The notes below the pieces were generated by a model. That model did no database searches. It was not told where the DNA came from and saw nothing but the letters and a program-made list of their open reading frames with translations. From IMG/VR virus record IMGVR_UViG_3300020084_000003, positions 220,777 through 284,776 of that record: a stretch of DNA of 64,000 nucleotides. One strand, 5' to 3'. Below are positions 61,088 to 61,205 of the stretch, piece after piece. The stretch is from a virus. The position numbers and the translations under genes were made by a program. Position 1 is the first letter of the stretch, and each line of letters begins with the position of its first letter.

Positions 61088-61205
61088 CTCGGGCGGCAGG
61101 GTTCGAACCTGCGACCACCTGATTACTTTTGAAGCTTCCCGAATCGAACGGGTATTTACCTTTAGCTTCCACAGTCAGGCGCTCTACCAACTGAGCTACA
61201 CCCGA
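61088..61205 (-). tRNA. tRNA-His(GTG) with 45-nt insertion
   Basis: Acceptor TCGGGTG/CGCCCGA (9 bp when extended), D arm GCTC..GAGC, anticodon stem CCTGA/TCAGG, loop CTGTGGA, T arm GCAGG/CCTGC. Between position 38 and the 3' anticodon strand lie 45 extra nt (61123-61167). The insert plus adjacent loop bases forms GAAGCT..AGCTTC around a T-arm-like ACCCG-TTCGATT-CGGGA. Removing it gives a normal tRNA-His. 3' end reads CAA, not CCA. Confidence 0.75.

Follow-up and report, generated by a model that had tools for sequence, protein, structure and literature searches.

The window analysed here (64,000 nucleotides) is the right end, positions 220777-284776, of a virus record of 284,776 bases. Its minus strand carries at 61088-61205 a tRNA gene interrupted by 45 nt. 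The Rfam tRNA model matched across all 118 nt with 59 bits; ARAGORN made no call at this position with introns off and called an interrupted tRNA with introns on. Removal of the 45 nt left a perfect cloverleaf, and the 118-nt RNA folded 4.1 standard deviations better than 200 shuffled sequences (z = -4.1).

In the frame fixed by homologous genes, the 5′ exon (61171-61205) comprises tRNA positions 1-35, pairs U1 with A72 within the cloverleaf and ends in C32 U33 G34 U35. An intron-like insert, GGAAGCTAAAGGTAAATACCCGTTCGATTCGGGAAGCTTCAAAAG, located at 61126-61170 between U35 and U36, was delimited by 13 homologous inserts and their covariation. The 3′ exon (61088-61125) runs from U36 A37 A38 to G73, and the terminal CCA is not encoded, with GCAA following G73. 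A leader strand (61206-61218) and a trailer strand (61076-61088), also read on the minus strand, pair with each other and extend the acceptor stem by 13 bp. The same helix has 12-13 pairs in the Asn genes of Agrobacterium phage Atu_ph07 and contig L008; no other tRNA called by ARAGORN in the window has more than five leader/trailer pairs.

Two more tRNA matches on the minus strand were given by Rfam and missed by ARAGORN: 37994-38064, which has the loop TTCCAAA and looks like tRNA-Trp, and a degenerate one at 60388-60465. HNH_3 endonuclease-like genes were found between tRNAs at 57772-58194 (plus strand, below the Pfam cut-off) and 59842-60414 (minus strand), and they are possibly free-standing homing endonucleases.

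Identity of the tRNA and position of the insert

The preliminary description had read this gene as tRNA-His(GTG) with an insertion at 61123-61167, following loop position 38 and close to the 37/38 site of archaeal and eukaryotic tRNA introns. The insertion is real: besides the Rfam, ARAGORN and folding results, the homologue in Atu_ph07 contains it with compensatory changes. Its length of 45 nt stood, and its position moved by three bases, to 61126-61170, when relatives were compared. The earlier frame alone also yields an equally neat cloverleaf, and only the comparison with relatives decides. Across the 13 homologues, only an interruption at 35|36 yields loops consistent with the remainder of each tRNA (Asn, Lys, Met/Ile, Thr), whereas at 37|38 the loops would variously be those of His, Tyr, Gln, Leu and Pro, in conflict with the identity marks.

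The identity of tRNA-His(GUG) is marked by G-1:C73, or by A73 in some alphaproteobacteria; the interrupted gene has C at -1 and G at 73. The uninterrupted tRNA-His(GTG) noted earlier was confirmed by ARAGORN at 41048-41123, and A73 was found in the tRNA-His that this record has besides the interrupted gene. The exons of the window gene contain U1:A72 and G73, and the loop reads CUGUUAA once the insert is removed. From the loops of the homologues, together with U1:A72 and G73 under the 35|36 frame, we therefore assign the gene to tRNA-Asn(GUU), very probably with its anticodon split at 35|36 by a true insert. The same marks and loops refute the His identity, and the relatives place the insert at 35|36 instead of near 37/38. 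Because only this frame fits the homologues, the likeness to 37/38 introns is lost as well. The searches of this record gave no second Asn tRNA, so that the interrupted gene supplies an otherwise missing tRNA here, as it does in Atu_ph07.

Homologous genes in other phages

A blastn search with the window gene revealed no interrupted copy in plasmids and, among phages, only that of Atu_ph07, which is 82% identical over the whole length including the insert and is unannotated there. Compensatory differences between the two genes were found in the insert stem (GAAGCT/AGCTTC in the window, AGAGGC/GCCTCT in Atu_ph07), the insert T-stem (CCCG/CGGG and TTCAG/CTGAA) and the acceptor extension (GTATTTTGC/GCAAAATAC and GGATTGT/GCAATCC).

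The family was gathered by blastn, a first covariance model and DNA patterns, followed by a later covariance model (R2), which matched the insert-bearing structure in many unrelated contigs. It is under-sampled, since the pattern scans require exact matches. In total, 13 distinct homologous inserts were collected from this record, Atu_ph07, Salicola phage SCTP-2 and several metagenomic phages. Genes for tRNA-Asn(GUU) of this kind are present in the window, Atu_ph07, SCTP-2 and contigs L008, L021, L022 and L027, and those for tRNA-Lys(UUU) in L008, Atu_ph07 and L062; a CAU tRNA was found in L061, a Thr(UGU) tRNA in L063 and one class-II scaffold in L021. All homologous inserts interrupt tRNAs with U36-A37-A38, at 35|36. 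U1:A72 and G73 occur in seven of seven standard Asn genes and A73 in the Lys genes, and a terminal CCA is encoded in most homologues. Patterns free of the UAA exon yielded about 120 contigs, in which no T-loop intron was found outside U36-A37-A38 tRNAs, and a scan of bacterial and archaeal genomes gave two chance matches only.

The published tRNA set of Atu_ph07 includes all amino acids except Asn and Thr (PMC6102473). Both gaps are filled by genes with an insert in MF403008, one for Asn (323905-324023) and one for Thr(UGU) (335108-335213); the latter is split at 35|36 by a 33-nt plain hairpin with no T-loop.

Other tRNA genes with inserts were also observed. In L071 (6666-6787, from G001) the anticodon loop of a probable tRNA-Leu(UAA) is interrupted by a 36-nt hairpin, which lies close to where cyanobacterial group I introns reside and is far too small to be one. 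Inserts of 82 and 72 nt in L044 (4274-4440) and L026 (7879-8030; both minus-strand coordinates) end in AAG/GAG|UAA and comprise several hairpins without a T-loop. ARAGORN with introns on found hairpin inserts of 59 and 29 nt in the anticodon loops of L063 (3889-4024) and L061 (3631-3736). In our record but outside the window, at 26609-26676 (L066 4610-4677), a Lys-like relative of the insert (30 bits) sits in an odd tRNA with a long variable arm and poor acceptor pairing, and is perhaps decayed.

Structure of the insert

The insert can be described in tRNA numbering, all on the minus strand. Positions 1-7 (61164-61170) form the 5′ strand of an acceptor-like stem, in which G1 faces A72 as a conserved mismatch, and positions 66-72 (61130-61136) form the 3′ strand. 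Between them lie a linker, AAAGGTAAAT, with a D-loop-like GG (61154-61163) and a T-arm with a canonical T-loop, ACCCG TTCGATT CGGGA (61137-61153); the T-arm-like TTCGATT loop of a minihelix had been noted before and is indeed present. The last four bases, positions 73-76 (AAAG, 61126-61129), end exactly at the 3′ splice site, and A75 and G76 face U33 and C32. Judged from its sequence and pairing, the insert is a mini-tRNA composed of an acceptor-like stem, a short linker and a T-arm.

This anatomy is that of the family, in which the four-base tail ends in AG, the T-loop reads TTCRANT or TGCRANT, and the linker is AAAGGTAA-like or replaced by a hairpin. Pairs 2-5:68-71 are Watson-Crick in 12-13 of the 13 inserts, with four pair types each, and the T-stem pairs 50-53:61-64 in 13 of 13, while 1:72 is a purine-purine mismatch in 12. 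G is found at +1 in 12 of 13 inserts and U35 at -1 in 11. Contig L063 contains an 88-nt version with extra hairpins, which comes near a full-size nested tRNA.

For the eight Asn-type inserts the covariation score was 0.808 versus 0.209 when shuffled (0 of 500 shuffles reached it), changes on both sides were seen in 15 of 19 pairs, and 96% of the cells were paired. A control that slid the pairing partners destroyed the covariation, and RNAalifold recovered the same fold unprompted. In each of these eight the stretch from C61 up to the 3′ splice site measures 16 nt, equal to tRNA positions 61-76, a distance imposed neither by the first 3′-exon pattern nor by BLAST. The 5′ splice site coincides with position +1, so that both splice sites in these eight inserts match a tRNA's own 5′ and 3′ ends. 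The distance from T-loop to 3′ splice site is 15 nt in the four Lys-type inserts (Lys and CAU) and 17 nt in Thr.

RNA ligases and endonucleases

A search for an RNA ligase and an endonuclease elsewhere in the genome had been proposed, and it was successful in part: ligases of the T4 Rnl1 and Rnl2 families were found in the same record, and RtcB and EndA were not. The RNA ligase genes found in this record all lie outside the window. A 386-aa relative of T4 Rnl1 (PF09511) is encoded at record 156893-158053 and matches T4 Rnl1 structures (Pfam and PDB), with a P-loop kinase-like ORF nearby; an HNH-Rnl2 fusion is located at 34598-35668, and a further RNA ligase gene adjoins a Thg1 gene, the two together at 191532-193600. 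Thg1, of the 3′-5′ polymerase family, was also found in Atu_ph07, SCTP-2, G001 and G002.

Rnl1 is present in six of eight carrier records and the Rnl2 family in seven of eight. This counts for little towards a splicing role, since large phages often carry RNA ligases for tRNA repair. RtcB was found in none of ten records, and neither was the EndA/Sen endonuclease (PF01974), for which controls were positive in four archaea; these searches covered the viral records, and gene absence weighs little where the carrier contigs are fragments.

Proposed splicing route

Considering the structure of the insert, we propose, with a probability of roughly 55%, that it is excised by RNase P and a 3′ tRNA-processing endonuclease and that the exons are sealed by a T4-type RNA ligase of the phage. 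The mini-tRNA would stack on the anticodon stem, and the tRNA-end-processing activities would handle it like a short precursor tRNA. The RNase P cut would fall between U35 and insert G1, 12 bp from the T-loop, and an RNase Z-like endonuclease would cut after insert position 76. Cuts by these two enzymes leave a 3′-OH and a 5′-phosphate, the ends used by T4-type RNA ligases; here they would lie on U35 and U36, respectively, and a ligase of the Rnl1 or Rnl2 family could join them, giving the anticodon loop CUGUUAA. Pairing between leader and trailer may keep the tRNA halves of this phage together until they are joined. For the separate parts, splicing of the insert by protein enzymes is probable, sealing by an Rnl-type ligase is somewhat favoured, and cutting specifically by RNase P is put forward tentatively.

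RNase P cleaves hairpins made of an acceptor stem, T-stem and T-loop at the canonical site, measuring 12 bp from the T-loop (PMC11143913). A T-loop and about 12 bp to the site were found in eight of eight Asn-type inserts; against this rule, the four Lys-type inserts are 1 bp short (11 bp) and the Thr insert 1 bp long. The 3′ RCCA of RNase P substrates is absent: the insert tail is AAAG, which would deprive the bacterial enzyme of its RCCA contact. This tail can also pair with positions 32, 33 and 35, and pairing of 32-35 could mask the RNase P site. In addition, small inserts without a T-loop occur at or near the same site (Thr of Atu_ph07, 33 nt; Leu of G001, 36 nt; L044; L026), so a single RNase P mechanism cannot cover all inserts.

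Inserts that lack a T-loop at the same site also speak for the main rival to the RNase P step, a dedicated phage endonuclease that would recognise either the mini-tRNA or the anticodon helix stacked on it, which has a UAA bulge of 3 nt, and leave joining to the phage RNA ligase. The contacts C32-G76 and U33-A75 hardly vary, and the mismatches at 34:74 and 1:72 are conserved; this suggests that a single uninterrupted helix is recognised. Nor would RNase P require the strict restriction to loops with U36-A37-A38. Nevertheless, we found no candidate gene and no EndA family member in the records searched, and such an enzyme would leave the exact match of both splice sites with tRNA ends unexplained. 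We regard it as rather unlikely.

The insert might also stay in place, the 118-nt RNA acting as a tRNA-like decoy, guide or scaffold, for example against tRNA-targeting defences. Bacterial tRNA-like Y RNAs offer a precedent (PMC7790460), and the conserved fold, the long acceptor extension and the lack of an encoded CCA in the window gene and Atu_ph07 would suit this role. However, the exons retain full Asn, Lys, Met/Ile or Thr identity with matching N73, which makes an unspliced decoy less likely; most homologues encode CCA, the gene fills the sole Asn gap of the tRNA set, and the window RNA has no YrlA match and the record no TROVE protein. This reading is improbable. A Y-RNA-like conserved tRNA mimic had been considered at first because Atu_ph07 does not share the GTG and because of the extended acceptor stem, and it was dropped when homologues with full Asn and Lys identity at 35|36 were found and the YrlA and TROVE searches were negative.

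A remnant or miniature group I intron spliced with help in trans is very improbable. The 5′ exon ends in U and the insert in G, as in group I introns, which do occur in bacterial anticodon loops, but inserts of 45-50 nt have no catalytic core, Rfam gave no group I match and the conserved fold is that of a mini-tRNA. As the preliminary description stated, the insert is far too small for this class. Still less credible is a 37/38 intron of tRNA-His cut by an EndA-like enzyme: taken alone, the window gene also gives a good loop in this frame (CTGTGGA), with position 32 paired to the third base from the intron end, but G73 and U1:A72 do not suit His, the homologues would turn into tRNAs for His, Tyr, Gln, Leu and Pro with wrong marks, there is no bulge-helix-bulge, and PF01974 was not found in the ten records. 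A version with the eukaryotic-type position-32 pair was dropped on product loops, discriminators and EndA absence. A pseudogene or assembly artefact, for which the missing CCA and the metagenomic contig might speak, is refuted by the covariation, with compensatory changes throughout and the same structure in the isolated, independently sequenced Atu_ph07 and SCTP-2.

Significance for phage tRNA sets

The tRNA introns of bacteria are known as self-splicing ribozymes. According to a 2014 review, every phage intron described until then lay in a protein gene, although phages have many tRNAs (PMC3984707), and passages of a comparative study of jumbo phages likewise name introns in protein genes only (PMC7824862); our comparison covers open-licence papers. 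That inserts of this kind recur in the tRNA genes of phages unrelated to one another suggests a class of bacterial-virus tRNA intron that has so far gone unrecognised. Inserts of 45-50 nt that split the anticodon cause phage tRNA sets to be under-counted, as in Atu_ph07, where the "missing" Asn and Thr tRNAs are present and interrupted. A tRNA-splicing pathway may thus exist in infected bacteria. If the proposed route is true, protein-dependent tRNA splicing would occur within bacteria without EndA or RtcB, and phage RNA ligases, so far known for repair, would gain a constructive role. If RNase P and an Rnl ligase suffice, this would be the simplest protein-dependent tRNA splicing known.

Comparison with known systems

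Archaeal and eukaryotic tRNA introns have their canonical site at 37/38, with non-canonical sites occurring in archaea, and are spliced by proteins (EndA/Sen) at a bulge-helix-bulge, a 4-bp helix between two 3-nt bulges. The phage insert resembles them as a small anticodon-loop intron with a structured splice region that apparently needs cutting and ligation. It differs in lying at 35|36 inside the anticodon, in being a mini-tRNA and in belonging to phages of bacteria, and no EndA gene was found in the viral records; in place of the bulge-helix-bulge there is a single bulge of 3 nt (UAA), and positions 34:74 and 1:72 are mismatched. With group I introns of bacterial tRNA anticodon loops it shares the bacterial setting, the exon-end U, the intron-end G and the loop location, but its 45-50 nt contain no ribozyme core: neither P3-P9 nor an Rfam match was found in the 45 nt of the window insert.

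Bacterial Y RNAs (YrlA) likewise place tRNA-like elbow modules within a larger RNA. The window RNA has no Y RNA stem and no Rfam match at a useful score (RF02553 gave 23.5 bits against a cut-off of 69, in a match spanning two genes), and no TROVE/Rsr partner protein was found in the record. Circularly permuted tRNA genes of red algae and archaea are similar in having exons rearranged around the anticodon, although the window gene keeps the usual exon order. One permuted gene was observed in a phage tRNA cluster, at 1632-1720 of L033 (IMGVR_UViG_3300031992_000016): its 3′ half, which has the same AG|UAA start, comes immediately before the 5′ half, and the outer flanks CGACAC/GTGTCG can pair.

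The minimal substrates of RNase P, hairpins of acceptor stem, T-stem and T-loop, have the same parts, the 12-bp measure and U-1/G+1. The phage insert is distinguished from them by being natural, embedded in another tRNA and without RCCA, and by the 11 bp of the Lys type. The insert fits none of the known tRNA-intron classes that were tested; what is new is the class of insert, and its splicing is predicted. We might speculate, with some doubt, that it represents a fourth class of tRNA intron, a mini-tRNA nested in the anticodon of phage tRNAs that decode A-starting codons, which would be excised by the RNase P and 3′ nuclease of the cell and sealed by a phage ligase.
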